From contig JALEKG010000047.1 of assembly GCA_022769185.1 (NCBI GenBank), positions 1 to 64,000 of the forward strand: a stretch of 64,000 nt of DNA, in the 5' to 3' direction. This stretch comes from Dorea sp. (GTDB lineage: Bacteria > Bacillota > Clostridia > Lachnospirales > Lachnospiraceae). Every line of letters begins with the position of its first letter. The first letter of the stretch is position 1. Below the pieces are notes generated by a model, which was given only the letters and a program-made list of their open reading frames with translations, was not told the DNA's origin and did no database searches. Of the stretch, positions 135-16,522 are shown one piece after another. Position numbers and translations under genes: made by a program.

Positions 135-946
135 GTGACCATATTTTCTAACTTTAATAACTGACAGGCATTTTTATAAAGAATTCGCTCTTTCTCCTCT
201 TCAGAAAGCGGCATCTTTGAAAAAACTTCCACAAACTGTTTCTGTCCGGCCCACGGAGAATCCGTTGCAAATAAAATCTTATCTGCACCATGCATCCTGA
301 CAATCCGAAGGAACTGTTCCTCTGGCATCCGGTCTAATACAACACCAGTATCAAAATACACTTCTTCCCCTACCAGATATCGTTCTACATCATCCCACAG
401 AGCATTTCCACCCATATGTGCAAGAACCAGTTTCTCAGGCTTTACTTCCCGGATCACTTCCCGCGCCATCTCTGGAGTACAGTGGATATCTTCCGGGCAT
501 TTCGGATCAACACCTGCATGAACTACGATGATCAGTCCCAGTTCGGATGCATCACTGATCAGGCGCTTATATCTGAGATCATTAAAATAACAGTCCTGAT
601 AATCCGGATGAAGCTTGATTCCTTTCATCCCCATCGCTTTTAGATTTTTTAATTCATGTTTTACATCTGAACAGTCCGGATGAATTCCTCCAAACGAAAT
701 GACCGGTGCCTCCTGATACTGCGCGGCAAACCGGTTCACAGAATCCATCTGCGATACCTTTGTTACAGCCGGAAGCGCAACAGATATGGCAATTCCCGCC
801 TCCTGTGCCGACTTCTTAAGTCCTTCATATGTACCATTCGTATAAGGTGAAGAATGACAGACATTACTTAAGAAATCCAATGTCTTCTCTGCAATTTTAT
901 CCGGAAATATATGAGTATGAAAATCAATTACCATCTTTTTTTTCAC
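122..946 (-). CDS. Amidohydrolase family metal-dependent hydrolase (TIM barrel)
   Basis: N-terminal DFHTHIFP, KGIKLHPDYQ, VVHAG, LAHMGG, LFATDSPW motifs; start may be 934. Confidence 0.8.
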   Translation of the reverse strand: MKKKMVIDFHTHIFPDKIAEKTLDFLSNVCHSSPYTNGTYEGLKKSAQEAGIAISVALPAVTKVSQMDSVNRFAAQYQEAPVISFGGIHPDCSDVKHELKNLKAMGMKGIKLHPDYQDCYFNDLRYKRLISDASELGLIIVVHAGVDPKCPEDIHCTPEMAREVIREVKPEKLVLAHMGGNALWDDVERYLVGEEVYFDTGVVLDRMPEEQFLRIVRMHGADKILFATDSPWAGQKQFVEVFSKMPLSEEEKERILYKNACQLLKLENMVTCKS

Positions 947-6058: not shown

Positions 6059-8326
6059 TTATTTTGTTTCCTCTTTTTTGATCTTGATCAGTTTATCATT
6101 CAGTTCTCTCTTAAATTCAGCAGTAACAGCTTTTCCTGCCATCTTAAGCATATCAGATAAGCGCATCATCAAGTAGAAGTTTGCCATCGGATTGTCTTCT
6201 TCTTGAGTTTCTACATTCTGATTTCCAGAATCGATCATTGTGAATGCTCCCTTGCCCATTACTGCACCAAACGCTTCTTTTACGATCTCTGCCGTTTCAG
6301 CATTTGCAAACAGTTCTCCGATCTTGCACTTGATGTTATAATATCCTTCCGGACATTCCAGTGGCTTGCGTGCCGCCCGGGCTGCCGGATCATCAAACCA
6401 GTTTGCTGCCTCATTGCCCTCTGGCAGATCGTAGGCAAAGTTGTGTTCTGCCACACCATTTAATGTAATCGTATTTGCCTCTACATCACCACATTTTGCA
6501 GTCACAGTATTTGCCCCATCATTTAAAGCAACATTTGTAAATACCACTGCGTGATCCACTGCTTCTTTTTTTGCAACTTCTTCTCCATTTACAACCAGTG
6601 TTACATTCGGACAGTTCGTATATACTGTCACAATACGTTCTTCCGGTGCGCGGTCTGCAAAACGCTCCCCACAAACGTGGATCATTGGTTCTGTAGTCCA
6701 GTATGCTTTATAGATATAGAATGCGTCCTTCTTAATCTTACGGTCATAAGTAATCAGACCCTTATTATTACGTCCCTGGACACCACCTTCATCACGTGCA
6801 TCTGCAGCAAAGTCAAACATATTCCATACATGAGTGCTCCACAGATATGGACGTGTTGCAAATGTCTTCAGCATTTCATGATGATAATGTGCCGCATATT
6901 CTTCGGTATAATCATGGTTGTCCGGCATCGTCGTATGCCATTTCAGGATTGCTTCCGCACCATATTCTGATACACCAAGCGGACGATCCGGATTCATTGC
7001 ATGGAATTTATCCAGCCATGGTCCGTTGTCCTCTACATCTCCTACATACCATCCAAAATAGTGATTGTAACTGAGTACATCTGTAATATATACATGTTCA
7101 CTGTCCATCGGAACCATAGATACCTCTGCCATGGTAGTCAGTCTGCTCGGATCCATTTTCTTTGCCAGTGCATGAAGATCTGTCAGATTACGGTACAGTG
7201 CCTCTGTCTCACCGTTGATCGTAATCTCATTCGAGATTCCCCAGAAACAGATTGCCGGATGATTGTAATTCTGAGCAATCAGCTCAGTCATCTGGCTGAT
7301 CGTGTTATCGTAAGCTTCCTGGGAAGGAATAAAGCTGCTGATAAATGGAATCTCTGCCCAGAGTACGAATCCAGTATGGTCACACAGATCGTAGAAATAC
7401 TGGTCATGCTGATAATGTGCCAGACGGATGGTATTTGCTCCTACTTCTTTGATCAGTGCAATATCTTCTTCATGGTCTTCTTTGGAAATTGCCCATCCTT
7501 TATCCTGGCGATCCTGATGACGGGATACCCCATGCAGCGGACAGCTCTTTCCATTCAGGAAGAATCCTCTCTCTGGATCCACATGGAATCCGCGGTAACC
7601 ATACGTTACAACCACTGTATCCAGAACTTCTCCGTCTTTTACAATAGAAGCCTCACAAGTATAGCAGTAAGGATCTTCCATTCCATTCCACAGATGTGGT
7701 TCTTTTACATTCAGTTTCAGAACTGTATGATCTTCCGCTTCTGTCTCGCCAGATGCTGCCACATTGCCGTCAGCATCTTTTAACTCTGCCTTTACGGTAC
7801 ATCCTTCTGCATTCACCGGGAACAGATCCAGACGGGTCTTTCCTGTAACATGTGGTGTTACAAATACCGCATCTGTTCCTGTCTTCAACAGATCAAAGTG
7901 CGCAGGAGCCACTTCAATAAAATTCACATCACGGTACAGTCCTCCATAGAATGTAAAGTCTGCATTCTGTGGATAGATATCACTCTTCTGATTGGTCACA
8001 ACCACGGTCAGTACATTTCCTTCCGGTTTCATAGCTGGTGTCAGATCATAGCGGAAGGTTGAAAAACCACCCTTATGTGTCCCAAGTTCACGGTCATTGC
8101 AATATACGGTTGCCACATGGTTTGCTCCCTGGATCTCAATATACTGCTTCTTTCCTTCTGTCGGATCCGGCAGATCAATACGGTAGGTTGCAAGCCCTCT
8201 CCAGTAATCATTGCCTCCATCCTGTCCATCAAGTGCATTCCAGGTATGCGGAAGTGCGATTGTCGTAAACGCTTCTCCGCTTTTTGCGAACTGAGCTGCA
8301 GTCAACAAGGTTTTCGTTCTCATCAT
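6059..8326 (-). CDS. Glycoside hydrolase family 2 (beta-galactosidase-like)
   Basis: GVSRHQDRQDKGWA, WGISNEI acid/base, GVSEYGAEA nucleophile; ATG at 8326 follows AAAGGAG (ORF track starts at 8344). Confidence 0.88.
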   Translation of the reverse strand: MMRTKTLLTAAQFAKSGEAFTTIALPHTWNALDGQDGGNDYWRGLATYRIDLPDPTEGKKQYIEIQGANHVATVYCNDRELGTHKGGFSTFRYDLTPAMKPEGNVLTVVVTNQKSDIYPQNADFTFYGGLYRDVNFIEVAPAHFDLLKTGTDAVFVTPHVTGKTRLDLFPVNAEGCTVKAELKDADGNVAASGETEAEDHTVLKLNVKEPHLWNGMEDPYCYTCEASIVKDGEVLDTVVVTYGYRGFHVDPERGFFLNGKSCPLHGVSRHQDRQDKGWAISKEDHEEDIALIKEVGANTIRLAHYQHDQYFYDLCDHTGFVLWAEIPFISSFIPSQEAYDNTISQMTELIAQNYNHPAICFWGISNEITINGETEALYRNLTDLHALAKKMDPSRLTTMAEVSMVPMDSEHVYITDVLSYNHYFGWYVGDVEDNGPWLDKFHAMNPDRPLGVSEYGAEAILKWHTTMPDNHDYTEEYAAHYHHEMLKTFATRPYLWSTHVWNMFDFAADARDEGGVQGRNNKGLITYDRKIKKDAFYIYKAYWTTEPMIHVCGERFADRAPEERIVTVYTNCPNVTLVVNGEEVAKKEAVDHAVVFTNVALNDGANTVTAKCGDVEANTITLNGVAEHNFAYDLPEGNEAANWFDDPAARAARKPLECPEGYYNIKCKIGELFANAETAEIVKEAFGAVMGKGAFTMIDSGNQNVETQEEDNPMANFYLMMRLSDMLKMAGKAVTAEFKRELNDKLIKIKKEETK

Positions 8327-8378
8327 AATTTCTCCTTTCATCATTCAGTCTCTATTCATTTTTATTAGATTTTCCAAT

Positions 8379-9770
8379 TTAAATCTCTCCACGGCGACGT
8401 TTTAATTCAGCGATATTTTCTTCTACACGTGTTTTATTCAATGGGTAGAGGAATATTAACACAATCGCAACAAGAATAAATCCAACAATTGGAATATAAC
8501 AGGACATTTTGAAAATACCTAATGTAACATCCGGGTCAAAAGCGGTTGCCTGCGTATATCCGATCAGGGACAAGAGTATACCTGTTAATCCAGAAGCAAG
8601 TGCCTGTCCCACTTTACGTGCGAAAGAATAGACAGAATATATGGTTCCGTCTTCCCGGACACCCGTTTTCACTTCTGAATCGTCAATAACGTCTGTGATC
8701 ATAGCCCAGATTACTGTATTAAAGAAACCAATTCCCAAATAAGCGACTGCTGAAAAACCAACGTATACAAATGGATTTTCCGGTCTGACGATTAGACATG
8801 CCACATAAACAACAGCACTGACCAGACACGCAGCTGTAGCTAGCTCTTTCTTTCCAAATTTGGTAGAAAGTTTTACTGCCAGAGGAGCACAGATGATCAG
8901 GATCACCAGATTTCCTACCAGACCTGCTACAGACTGAGCTGCTGCGGATCCGTAATAGTTCGGATATACATATCCAGACATCGTAGACATCCCAAGCTGA
9001 GCCAGAAGAAGAACGATAGCTGCTGCAATGATTCCCAGAAGAGAGCGATTGGTTACAAGGCTCTTTAACAGTTTTCCAATCTCCAGCTTTTGTGTATTAG
9101 CCTGTACCGGAACACGTTCACGAACCAGATTAAAACAAAGCAGGTAGCAGATAATCGCACAGATACTGAATACCCCTGCAATGATCGTCATACGGCTTCC
9201 GGAAAGAACGGTATTGCCATCTACTACTTCATAAGCAACCAGCGGAGTACCAACTCCGATTACCAGGCCGGCCAGAGTACCGCCAACAGTACGCCAGGTA
9301 GACAGCTGTGCACGGTCCTTAGCATCAGCAGAAATTGCAGATGCCATGGATCCATAAGGAATATTGATAGATGTATAGAAGATAGAACCCCACAAAAGAT
9401 ATGTGACTACCAGCCATACTACCTTGAATCCATAAGCCATATCAGCAAATGCAGACTGATAGATCAGGAAAGAAGCAATCGCCACCGGTCCACACATTCG
9501 TTTGATCCATGGTTTGAATTTACCGTCTTTGGTCGGTTTGGAACGGTCTACGATCTGTCCCATTGTCACATCTGTTACAGCATCCACGAAACGTGCTGCC
9601 ATCATCAAAAGACCAACGACACTTGCTGAGACACCCATAACATCTGTGTAGAATTTCAGCATAAACATGGAGGATAAAATAAATGTGAAATCGTTACCAA
9701 AATCACCGAACATGTACCCGATCTTGTCCTTTATTCCGAAAGGACGTACGGAAGCATTAGTATTAGACAT
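8379..9770 (-). CDS. MFS/GPH-family glycoside-cation symporter
   Basis: IKDKIGYMFGDFGNDFTFILSSMFMLKFYTDVMG, multiple TM segments; upstream of and co-oriented with GH2. Confidence 0.88.
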   Translation of the reverse strand: MSNTNASVRPFGIKDKIGYMFGDFGNDFTFILSSMFMLKFYTDVMGVSASVVGLLMMAARFVDAVTDVTMGQIVDRSKPTKDGKFKPWIKRMCGPVAIASFLIYQSAFADMAYGFKVVWLVVTYLLWGSIFYTSINIPYGSMASAISADAKDRAQLSTWRTVGGTLAGLVIGVGTPLVAYEVVDGNTVLSGSRMTIIAGVFSICAIICYLLCFNLVRERVPVQANTQKLEIGKLLKSLVTNRSLLGIIAAAIVLLLAQLGMSTMSGYVYPNYYGSAAAQSVAGLVGNLVILIICAPLAVKLSTKFGKKELATAACLVSAVVYVACLIVRPENPFVYVGFSAVAYLGIGFFNTVIWAMITDVIDDSEVKTGVREDGTIYSVYSFARKVGQALASGLTGILLSLIGYTQATAFDPDVTLGIFKMSCYIPIVGFILVAIVLIFLYPLNKTRVEENIAELKRRRGEI

Positions 9771-9951
9771 AATATTTCTCCTTTTCTTTATATCTTTTAT
9801 TTTGACAAAATTATACCATTCATTTTTTTAAATATATGAGGAAATTTTTTCCTATTTATCGTATTTTTTTTGTTCATGGTTGAAATACCCTAAAAATTGT
9901 ACGATAATAGATAATAATACTACGACTGCCAGGCGGCCAAGAGGAGCTTTT

Positions 9952-11211
9952 ATGAATTACAAAGTACAATTAGAATTTTTTGAAAAACTGTTACAAAATT
10001 ACCATCTTTCTTTTCATTATTTATCCGAAAATACAGAGTCCGAACCCATTTTTGATTATGGTCTGCGCAGGCTATTTAAACCTGATCTCGATTATTATAA
10101 GATTGCAGATGAGATTGCCAGATATTATAAGCCAAATACCATCTATAAAATTCAGGATTATTTTTTCTGTAATTATCTCATCTTCCAGCTGCCGGATACA
10201 GAAATACCTACACATATGATCATCGGCCCTTATGAACTCATTCCGATTCGTTCTGAAATGTTCAAAAAAGACTTTATTGATTATGTGATTTCCACAGGTA
10301 TTGAACATTCGATTAAAAAATTTTACTACGATATACCGATCATCCCGGAAGAAAGCCGTATCATGACAATGCTATATACTTTAGGGGAATATATGTGGGG
10401 TGATATGGATCATTTTACTGTAGAAGATGTCCATGAACTTGTATCTGATACTTTTATTACATTTGACCCTGTCCCACAACGGACGGATCTGCAGGAAGCA
10501 GAAGATCCTTATCTTAGCATTAAGGCAATGGAAGACCGTTACGCAGAAGAAAACAAACTGATTCAAGCCGTATCCCAGGGACAGATCCATAAAGCTGAAC
10601 TTCATTTTAATAACCTGGCTTCTTTCCAGTCCGAACAGCGGACTTCCGATACCCTGCGCAACACGAAAAATTATGCCATTGTTTTTAATACTTTGATGCG
10701 AAAGGCAGCAGAAGCCGGCGCGGTGCACCCTCTTCACATTGATTCTTTGTCCTCAAGATATGCAAAAAAAATTGAGCTGGCTACTTCTGTCCATGCACTG
10801 GCTGCACTGCAAAGGGAGATGGTTCATAAATACTGCCTTCTTGTGATCAATCATTCCATGAAAGGATATTCACTGCTTGTCCGGAAGATCCTCACCCGGA
10901 TTGATTCGGATCTGGCTTCTGACTTAAGCCTTAAGACGCAAGCAAAACAGTTGAATATGAATCCAAGTTATCTGTCATCATTATTTAAAAAAGAAACAGG
11001 GAGCACATTAACAGAATACGTGAACAAAAAAAGAATTGAACATGCAATTTTTCTTCTGAATACTACTACTATGCAGATTCAGACGATTGCCCAGGCGTGT
11101 GGAATCACTGATGTAAATTATTTTACAAAAATTTTCAAAAAACAAATTGGTATTACACCGAAAGAATATCGCAATAAAATCATAAGCTCTAAACGAAATG
11201 TTTCGCATTAA
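9952..11211 (+). CDS. AraC family transcriptional regulator
   Basis: C-terminal AraC HTH (LNMNPSYLSSLFKKETGSTLTEYVNKKRIEHA...IAQACGITDVNYFTKIFKKQIGITPKEYR); ATG 9952 behind aagaggag. Confidence 0.9.
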   Translation: MNYKVQLEFFEKLLQNYHLSFHYLSENTESEPIFDYGLRRLFKPDLDYYKIADEIARYYKPNTIYKIQDYFFCNYLIFQLPDTEIPTHMIIGPYELIPIRSEMFKKDFIDYVISTGIEHSIKKFYYDIPIIPEESRIMTMLYTLGEYMWGDMDHFTVEDVHELVSDTFITFDPVPQRTDLQEAEDPYLSIKAMEDRYAEENKLIQAVSQGQIHKAELHFNNLASFQSEQRTSDTLRNTKNYAIVFNTLMRKAAEAGAVHPLHIDSLSSRYAKKIELATSVHALAALQREMVHKYCLLVINHSMKGYSLLVRKILTRIDSDLASDLSLKTQAKQLNMNPSYLSSLFKKETGSTLTEYVNKKRIEHAIFLLNTTTMQIQTIAQACGITDVNYFTKIFKKQIGITPKEYRNKIISSKRNVSH

Positions 11212-11255
11212 ATTAAAAAATAACAAAGATGTATAGAAAGGAGTTTAACATACTT

Positions 11256-12560
11256 ATGAACCCAACTGTTACTATTATTGTCCCAGTCTATAACGCAGAA
11301 AAAACCATTTCACGCTGCATAGAAAGCATCTTAAATCAGGACTATACTGATTTTGAACTGATTCTGGTAGATGATGGAAGCAAAGATTCTTCCGGGGCTA
11401 TTTGTGATAACTATGCTTCCGGGGATTCCCGTGTTTTGGTTATCCATAAAGAAAATTCAGGAGTTTCTGATTCCAGAAATACGGCCCTGGATCAGGCACG
11501 TGGTACTTATCTTCAGTTTCTTGACAGTGACGACTGGATCACTCCAAACGCCACTGGTCTTCTGGTCCAGTCTGCCGAACGCTACCATTGTGATCTGGTC
11601 ATCTCCGACTTCTATCGTGTCGTGGGAGACCGCTTAGCTCACAAAGGTGATATCGAAGATGACTGTGTTCTGACACAGGAAGAATTTGCAGAACACATGA
11701 TAGAAAATCCGGCAGATTTTTATTATGGTGTCCTCTGGAACAAGTTATTCCGCCGGGAAATTGTTGAAAAATATCATCTTCGAATGGATACCAGTATCAG
11801 TTGGTGTGAAGATTTCATGTTTAACCTGGAATATATCCGGCATGCTAAAGTTTTTTATGCGCTTCAGGTCCCCATCTATTATTATGTTAAGACAAAAGGA
11901 TCTCTTGCCAGTCAGGGAATGAGCATCTCCAAGACGATAAAAATGAAACTGATGGTCTTTGAATACTACAACAATTTTTATAAACATGTGCTAAATGATG
12001 AGGATTACGAAAAGAACCGGCTACAAGTCTACCGTTTTCTGGTAGATGCAGCCGGTGACGGAGCTGTTCCGCCCGCGATCCTTCCCGGCTCCCAGAAATT
12101 GGGGGAAGAACGAAGTCTCATTTCTCCAGGAGCAGTTACAGGAGAAGGTTTTCTTCTGGACGAGTATCGCAACCGGAAACTTTTGGATTATTATCTGGAA
12201 CCGGTAGCCCTGAAAAATAATCTTTCTTTAGAAGAGACTCGTCTGCTTCTTTCCCTGAATCAGCCTCACCACTGCACAACCCGCCGGGAGCTGGCAGACT
12301 TCGCAGACATCAGCCAGCGTTCCCTTTCAATTTTACTTCAGAGGCTTTCGGTGAAAGGGATATTAAAAACAGAAAATAATCGAAGTAAAAAACAGTTAAA
12401 TATTATATTTCTTCCTCCTGCAGCCCCGATCTTTGAAGATCTGGCTGCCGCTCAAAGCAGCTTTGATCAGGCAAGATTTGAAGGTTTCACGGAAGAAGAT
12501 CTGATTCAATACTCTCAATATACTGACAGAATCAAGCAAAATATTCAGAAGATTCTATAA
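11256..12560 (+). CDS. GT2 glycosyltransferase with C-terminal MarR-like winged-helix domain
   Basis: TIIVPVYNAEKTISRCIESILNQ, DDGSKDSS, LDSDDW; C-terminus TRRELADFADISQRSLSILLQRLSVKGILKTENNRSKKQLNIIFLPPAAPIFEDL resembles a MarR wHTH; start 11256 behind AAAGGAG. Confidence 0.85.
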   Translation: MNPTVTIIVPVYNAEKTISRCIESILNQDYTDFELILVDDGSKDSSGAICDNYASGDSRVLVIHKENSGVSDSRNTALDQARGTYLQFLDSDDWITPNATGLLVQSAERYHCDLVISDFYRVVGDRLAHKGDIEDDCVLTQEEFAEHMIENPADFYYGVLWNKLFRREIVEKYHLRMDTSISWCEDFMFNLEYIRHAKVFYALQVPIYYYVKTKGSLASQGMSISKTIKMKLMVFEYYNNFYKHVLNDEDYEKNRLQVYRFLVDAAGDGAVPPAILPGSQKLGEERSLISPGAVTGEGFLLDEYRNRKLLDYYLEPVALKNNLSLEETRLLLSLNQPHHCTTRRELADFADISQRSLSILLQRLSVKGILKTENNRSKKQLNIIFLPPAAPIFEDLAAAQSSFDQARFEGFTEEDLIQYSQYTDRIKQNIQKIL

Positions 12561-14870: not shown

Positions 14871-15215
14871 TTAAAGATTTTTCCAGACTTCTTCCACATC
14901 CATATCCATACGGATCTCATCCACAACCTTCTCACTGTTTACATTCATGATTTCTCTTCCGTCATAATCGATCGATACAAATAACGCAAACAGCAGAAAG
15001 CTTAGGAAAAACCTGACACCAAAACTTCCACTTTCCGTCTGCATTCCTGCTTCGGGATATAACCCGGCATATGCCATACCGTATCGAGGATGAACTGCAG
15101 GAATCTCTTGATCACGATACAGCTTCCTTGTCTGTTCCAGAAGCTGCTTTCTTCTTTTTTCCGAACTGTTCACAACTATCACCTCTTGGAAATATATGCT
15201 GTCTCCAACATTCAT
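14871..15215 (-). CDS. Hypothetical small protein with one predicted TM segment
   Basis: FFLSFLLFALFVSI hydrophobic stretch; possible GTG start at 15173 behind AGAGGTG. Confidence 0.55.
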   Translation of the reverse strand: MNVGDSIYFQEVIVVNSSEKRRKQLLEQTRKLYRDQEIPAVHPRYGMAYAGLYPEAGMQTESGSFGVRFFLSFLLFALFVSIDYDGREIMNVNSEKVVDEIRMDMDVEEVWKNL

Positions 15216-15238: not shown

Positions 15239-16522
15239 TTACCGGTCTGCCAGTTCTTTCACAATGTCTTCCCAGGTAAGGCCTTTTTCTACCATCAGTA
15301 CCATCGCATGATACAGAAAATCAGCCATCTCATACTTGACTTCCTCTGGATTCGGATTCTTTGCCGCAATCACAACTTCCGTTGCCTCTTCCCCAATCTT
15401 CTTCAGAATCTTATCAATCCCTTTATCGAACAGGTAATTGGTATAAGAACCTTCTCTTGGATTCTCTTTCCGGTCTAAAATCGTCTGATAAACAGATTCA
15501 AATATCCTGAGTGGATTGGTCTCATCATAATCTGTACCTACCAGTGGCTGGAAAAAACAAGTCGGGTTCCCGGTATGACATGCAGCTCCGATCTGGTCTA
15601 CCTTGGCAAGCAGCGTATCCAGATCACAGTCAATCGTCAGGGATTTTACATACTGAAAATGGCCGCTGGTTTCACCTTTCACCCACAGTTTCTGTCTGCT
15701 TCTGCTGAAGTAGGTCATCTTTCCCGTCTTTATTGTCTGATTAAATGATTCTTCATTCATATATGCCAACATCAAAACTTCCTGCGTCTTATAATGCTGC
15801 ACCACGACTGGTATTAATCCCTGGTCATTCGTCTTAAACTGAGAAAATTCCATCATACTTTCAAAAGAAGTCATCTTAATATCTTCTGCTGCACATTCAT
15901 CTTTAAATGTCACAAAATCCATATTCTGCTGACTGACATACTTTCCGGAAAGTCCTTTCACACCAGTACATTTCAATATTTTAAATAACTCTGATTTTTC
16001 CTCTGTATCTGTTACGATCACGCATGGAACATCTGTAACATTCATGATCGAATTCAGATCCAGTCTGTGCATAAATACAATCTCACTACAATATTCCTGA
16101 ATCAGATGCTGGTGCTTAAACAGCCCATCAAAATCATTTAATGAAACCGCCAGTTTTTCTTTTCCAAACCGCTTTGCTGCATCTTCAATCAGCTTCACAC
16201 TCTCCGGTTTTGAAAAATTCAGCATTGCCCGTTTCGCACCGGCATATAAAATCTTTTTAATATCTTCCTGTCTTTTTATATTTCCACCTGCAATCATTGG
16301 AATACGGATCAGTCGGTTCATCCGTTTCATCATATTGATTGCTTCTTCATGCTCTTCATCTGAATCAGACAGATCAAACACAATCAATTCATCTGCACCG
16401 TGATCACTGTAATATTTTGCAAGTTCAATGACATCTTCGGCAATCACAGTTTTATCATGAAACCATCTCACTGCCTTTCCGTCCGCGATGAAGATACAGG
16501 GGATTAATTTCTTATAACTCAT
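15239..16522 (-). CDS. hisIE: HisIE (phosphoribosyl-AMP cyclohydrolase / phosphoribosyl-ATP pyrophosphatase) with N-terminal degenerate HisF-like domain
   Basis: HisI motifs ([35 protein letters not shown]), HisE motifs ([15 protein letters not shown]), N-terminal HisF-like barrel ([20 protein letters not shown]). Confidence 0.88.

Follow-up and report, generated by a model that had tools for sequence, protein, structure and literature searches.

The gene at positions 11,256 to 12,560 of the window (the whole stretch of DNA analyzed, 64,000 nucleotides of a Dorea sp. contig) encodes a GT2 glycosyltransferase joined in one chain to a complete MarR-type winged-helix domain, and comparison with its homologs indicates that the fusion is old, single in origin, and maintained. 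With about even confidence, we favor a reading in which the MarR fold is chiefly a dimerization or control module of an active, soluble GT2, specific DNA binding being absent in most members. Enzyme–regulator fusions are already known as a kind, and a conserved GT2-MarR family is not described as far as our searches show. No description of the architecture was found in the openly licensed literature, an earlier report elsewhere being possible, and none of the curated family models searched, including Pfam and NCBIfam, separates GT2-MarR proteins from ordinary GT2 proteins.

An alternative ATG at 11,229 sits upstream of the AAAGGAG Shine-Dalgarno sequence, so 11,256 is the likely start; orthologs of the protein also start at the same M-x-P. 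The N-terminal half had initially been read as carrying intact GT2 motifs, which the profile search and alignment bear out. PF00535 matches residues 6 to 172 with an E value of 8.4e-38 (130.4 bits against a cut-off of 23.3), and the residues of the DDGS, DSDD, and ED-base motifs (D40, D90, D92, D93, E185, and D186) are invariant in 56/56 homologs. A Foldseek search with the AlphaFold model of the whole protein (pLDDT 86.7, pTM 0.81) gave CgT/GalT1, TarS, TarP, and RmlT as the closest solved structures (E about 1e-15 to 1e-18), the whole-chain alignments to which have an rmsd of 12 to 18 Å, so that the true match is that of the GT part only. The C-terminal parts of these enzymes are not known to be MarR folds, and their acceptors lie on the cell surface. 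The sequence contains no evident membrane segment, and the protein, whose catalytic motifs are intact, is predicted to be a soluble GT2 of the inverting GT-A type that is probably active as an enzyme.

The C-terminal domain, which the initial annotation had called MarR-like and placed from about residue 300, was located at about residues 299 to 434 by the AlphaFold model and profile alignment. A family profile built from 54 homologous C-terminal domains and searched against the PDB matched MarR proteins, with SlyA first (7.5e-14) in an alignment spanning helix 2 to helix 6. The model of the domain alone reached a pLDDT of 94, and the order of elements in the AlphaFold models (helices 1 and 2, a helix-turn-helix of helices 3 and 4, the wing, and helices 5 and 6) is that of MarR. 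Comparison of this model with known structures, which the initial annotation had proposed as a check, returned the expected winged helix-turn-helix, as all 50 of the 50 best Foldseek matches in the PDB belonged to the MarR family, RovA and SlyA among the best. As a single sequence, the domain stays below the Pfam cut-off (MarR_2 0.056, HTH_Crp_2 0.008; 14.1 bits against 27), and the NCBIfam MarR-family regulator model TIGR04472 matches residues 329 to 431 at 1.3e-6, also below its cut-off (28.5 bits against 240). MarR_2 matches 34 of the 56 homologs, with a best value of 5.4e-9, and the ortholog from a sister species clears the MarR_2 cut-off with 33.8 bits.

Table 1. Features of the GT2-MarR gene, its neighbors in the window, and the GH3 genes adjoining its homologs at other loci. 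Positions are those of the window unless a locus is named.
Feature	Residues	Position	Strand	Basis
GT2-MarR fusion gene	434 aa + stop	11256..12560	+	Intact ORF, no internal stops; full-length homologs in >50 species
Likely Shine-Dalgarno AAAGGAG		11238..11244	+	Read off the sequence, 11-12 bases 5' of ATG; AGGAG retained upstream of close homologs
GT-A catalytic domain	1-215	11256..11900	+	Pfam PF00535, 8.4e-38; motifs; Foldseek CgT, TarS, TarP, RmlT
DxD-type motif DSDD; ED base	90-93; 185-186	within 11256..11900	+	Invariant in 56 homologs
Helical end of GT part	216-285	11901..12110	+	AlphaFold helices 224-267; conservation good
MarR-fold domain	299-434	12150..12557	+	PDB profile search, SlyA 7.5e-14; AlphaFold pLDDT 94; Foldseek best 50/50 MarR family
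Helix 1	299-320	12150..12215	+	AlphaFold; best conserved element of the domain; dimerization helix in known MarRs
Helix 2; helix 3; helix 5; helix 6	325-334; 343-349; 389-407; 413-433			AlphaFold
Recognition helix (helix 4), QRSLSILLQRLSV	354-366	12315..12353	+	AlphaFold, conservation
Wing hairpin, basic, without D-x-R motif	370-385	12363..12410	+	AlphaFold, alignment
AraC-type regulator		9880..11211	+	Pfam HTH_18, 3.2e-21; listed from TTG 9880, likelier ATG 9952
MFS_2/GPH sugar transporter		8379-9770	-	Pfam
GH2 glycosidase		6059-8344	-	Pfam
GH3 genes		L041:9281-11602; L045:9278-11608; L172:6907-9321; L142:6010-8586	same as GT2-MarR	

Homologous full-length GT2-MarR proteins numbered 57 (56 of which went into the alignment), mostly from Lachnospiraceae, where they were found in about 42/397 species genomes, about one in ten of those sampled. 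The architecture also occurs in a few other lineages, including records labeled Erysipelotrichaceae, and is seldom found in the rest of the order and phylum; the plasmid records searched held no full-length GT2-MarR protein. In the tree built from the GT part, the MarR domain is present on 57/58 rows of one clade (L042 and L176, both among the 57, are identical), the exception being L171. The label requires two changes, one gain and one loss in L171, against 15.5 in shuffles. The GT and MarR parts diverge together, with a Mantel r of 0.83 against a permutation maximum of 0.27. Values of dN/dS against the nearest relatives were mostly saturated, and closer pairs were therefore taken. In five unsaturated pairs, dN/dS was 0.055 to 0.14 for the MarR part and 0.04 to 0.09 for the GT part, so the MarR part evolves somewhat faster, and in the more diverged pair L165/L167 the MarR part reached 0.49. 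It is the confinement to one clade, the in-step divergence, and the purifying selection that argue for an old, single, and maintained fusion.

The single-sequence Pfam scores under the cut-off could raise the suspicion that adjacent genes were joined erroneously in assembly or annotation, or that a helix-turn-helix was over-read. However, the same stop-free, full-length architecture recurs in more than 50 independent genomes, and the GT tree, the strong profile and fold matches, and the purifying selection likewise refute such an artefact, which we consider scarcely conceivable. The fusion, whose conservation the initial annotation had left to be checked, is thus conserved in more than 50 species and does not arise from a gene boundary misread in this genome only.

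Two control sets of standalone MarRs, drawn from the same bacterial family and similarly diverged (about 0.3 pairwise identity), served for comparison with the fused domain; they consist of homologs rather than strict orthologs. Mean per-column identity in the fused domain was 0.42 for helix 1, 0.31 for helix 4, and 0.18 for the wing, whereas in the standalone sets it was 0.22/0.18, 0.40/0.45, and 0.36/0.43, respectively. Conservation is therefore inverted, with helix 1 kept best in the fusion and the recognition helix and wing kept best in standalone MarRs. Expressed as the ratio of helix 4 and wing to helix 1, this gives 0.58 [0.55-0.63] for the fusion versus 1.74 [1.48-2.06] and 2.43 [2.21-2.72] for the standalone sets. 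The D-x-R motif of the wing was found in 12/54 fused domains as opposed to 25/28 standalone proteins (p 4e-9), and among these 12 fused cases an aligned DRR occurs in L146 and L148 only; the motif is absent from the protein under study. The wings of fused domains range from nearly absent or shortened to long, variable inserts rich in K and E. A loss of basic residues from the domain was also considered and is ruled out, as the mean charge of helix 4 is +2.9 in the fusion and +1.1 in standalone MarRs. In the protein under study, basic residues on helices 3 and 4 and the wing are R343, R344, R355, R363, K367, K371, R376, K378, and K379. On the basis of the inverted conservation and the loss of D-x-R, weighed against the basic helix 4, classical DNA binding at a conserved site is probably not the reason for the domain's retention across the family, although the protein of this species may still bind DNA in that way. 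Of the gene-regulatory role first proposed, the MarR fold stands and the DNA-binding part is weakened.

The layout around the gene is as originally described, with the AraC-type regulator gene upstream on the same strand at a gap of 44 bp and the GH2 and GPH genes on the opposite strand. The proposed link to the GH2/GPH operon through the divergent promoter at 9771-9951 did not survive comparison with the sister species (G001; protein 81% identical). There, the same genes flank the GT2-MarR gene on both sides and GH2, GPH, and AraC are missing; nor did neighbors of these three kinds recur in 51 loci. This synteny rules out the link: the cassette (window 6059-11211) is gained or lost independently of the GT2-MarR gene, and because it comes and goes in this way, the divergent promoter has no special claim as a target.

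Almost no neighbor of the GT2-MarR gene recurs across the 51 loci, and a search for a conserved operon partner by neighbor clustering at 68 loci gave generic ABC ATPases in 15 and otherwise nothing in more than four. In four loci (L041, L045, L142, and L172), the next gene downstream of GT2-MarR, on the same strand, encodes a GH3 glycosidase; the GH3 start overlaps the end of the GT2-MarR gene in L041, L045, and L172 and lies 69 bases on in L142. These loci fall on about three branches of the tree; the probability of three independent cases is 1.6e-4 to 2e-3 at a background of 0.2-0.5% per neighbor, a rate that is our own estimate. Other sugar-related neighbors (apiosidase-like, GH5, PfkB, and GtrA) were seen once each, and in L041 a gene for a GtrA-like membrane protein lies directly upstream. 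The recurrent GH3 and the sugar-related neighbors suggest a connection to sugar metabolism. Upstream regions of close homologs were also searched for a conserved operator and contained no shared palindrome. They share AGGAG, a -10-like GTAAAAT is visible by eye in several, and inverted repeats upstream of GT2-MarR genes are in weak excess (paired z 2.1).

Glycosyl transfer appears to be the core function of the family, because the GT is complete and exists without the MarR domain, which was lost in L171 and is absent from the sister clade. We infer that the GT2 part would use a nucleotide-linked sugar as donor and an envelope or glycan precursor as its most likely acceptor. The MarR domain was joined to it a single time, in the ancestor of the carriers among the Lachnospiraceae or close to that ancestor. 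The MarR fold is kept, but constraint has left the DNA-reading surface and now rests on helix 1 and the junction with the GT. The domain would now chiefly dimerize and control the enzyme, and the MarR pocket may hold a ligand. This dimerization or control module is favored because TarS and TarP, whose C-terminal parts serve oligomerization, trimerize through C-terminal residues (PMC9837562) and because helix 1 belongs to the dimerization domain of known MarRs (PMC6401476). The conservation of helix 1 could equally fit a ligand pocket or a contact with the GT domain, and different operators in different species could also make helix 4 vary. The basic character of helix 4 on average and the basic residues retained around the helix-turn-helix of the protein under study are points against this reading. 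They would instead fit a trigger enzyme, to which we give a tentative second place, in which sensing would fall to the GT domain and DNA binding to the MarR domain. A donor or acceptor in the GT site would alter the spacing of the recognition helices in the dimer in the manner of BirA, and the supply of glycan precursor would set how strongly glycan genes or the GT2-MarR gene itself are transcribed. BirA-type trigger enzymes likewise combine an enzyme and a winged helix in one chain, the winged helix of BirA being N-terminal and its operators known. The genuine MarR fold, which resembles those of SlyA and RovA, the purifying selection on the MarR domain, the glycosidase and sugar genes adjoining in several species (GH3 in four), and the weak excess of inverted repeats all count toward such an enzyme. 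However, helix 1 is kept better than the recognition helix and wing, the reverse of standalone MarRs, D-x-R is lost in most members, and neither a conserved target neighbor among the loci compared nor a recognizable conserved operator upstream of close relatives was found. It is less likely than not, in our estimate, that the protein is a one-component MarR regulator in which the GT does the sensing and passes the occupancy of its site, by sugar nucleotide or acceptor, directly to the DNA-binding domain of the same chain.

A precedent for a GT2 protein controlling transcription is GmaR, the flagellin O-GlcNAc transferase and MogR anti-repressor of Listeria monocytogenes, which combines in one chain a GT2 and a C-terminal part acting on transcription (PMC3150276, PMC9638930). 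The GT2 domain is shared (phmmer match 22ao_A, 0.00044). However, the GT of GmaR is followed by a TPR, a linker, and a helical-repeat antirepressor, a C-terminal part that lacks a MarR fold and binds a repressor protein, whereas the GT of the protein under study is followed by a MarR fold and by no TPR or helical anti-repressor. Neither a flagellar nor a MogR link of GT2-MarR was seen. The complete six-helix fold with a wing is in turn common to MarR, SlyA, and RovA, from which the fused domain differs in its place behind a GT2 enzyme, its poorly conserved recognition helix and wing, and the mostly absent D-x-R. Another possibility, which we hold improbable and rank below both the dimerization or control module and the trigger enzyme, is that the basic winged-helix surface or a lysine-rich wing presents the acceptor to the GT site. 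This acceptor would be a polyanion or peptide, such as a teichoic-acid-like polymer, a protein, or a RiPP-like peptide. TarS, TarP, and RmlT, to which the GT is similar in fold, act on polyribitol phosphate, and a basic, poorly conserved surface is consistent with nonspecific binding of polyanions. RiPP recognition elements, which are winged helices, bind peptides when fused to GT2 enzymes (PMC12710340). However, teichoic-acid or RiPP genes do not recur nearby, and the acceptor site of TarS and TarP is located in other parts (PMC9837562). The domain also has the MarR order of six helices and a wing, with helices first and the wing after helix 4, rather than the bbb-aaa order of recognition elements (PMC12710340), and its identification as such an element was rejected.

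If the domain binds DNA, the glycosyltransferase would signal the supply of glycan directly to promoters, a form of control that the literature searched describes for no GT2-MarR protein. Should the GT act as the sensor, this glycan-supply switch would be kept in many species of Lachnospiraceae, which are common gut bacteria. If the domain does not bind DNA, the family would show clearly how a transcription-factor fold can be co-opted as part of an enzyme, and about 57 genomes would be available for its study.

Other partner domains were found in the sister clade of this GT2 subfamily. Four members (L181, L182, L183, and L185, from G089, G197, G281, and G345) carry a C-terminal fusion to the uracil-DNA-glycosylase superfamily (Pfam UDG 2.9e-11 in L182), which has a single origin on the GT tree, and one UDG-fused member also carries an aminoacyl-tRNA editing domain. 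Additionally, the protein at L193:9111-10499 has an N-terminal GNAT acetyltransferase domain, and L186, L187, and L191 have a small HTH-like C-terminal tail. On the basis of these GNAT and HTH-like additions, the GT subfamily gains partner domains repeatedly.

Finally, two further genes of the window were observed on the minus strand. The gene at 15239-16522 encodes a 427-aa chain composed of a His_biosynth (HisA/HisF-like) barrel, matched in the first part only, followed by PRA-CH and PRA-PH (HisI, HisE). The gene at 14871-15215 encodes a 114-aa protein that matches nothing in Pfam at E 1e-4; it is conserved in the sister species, where it occupies the same position, flanked by an RmlD-like gene and the His genes.
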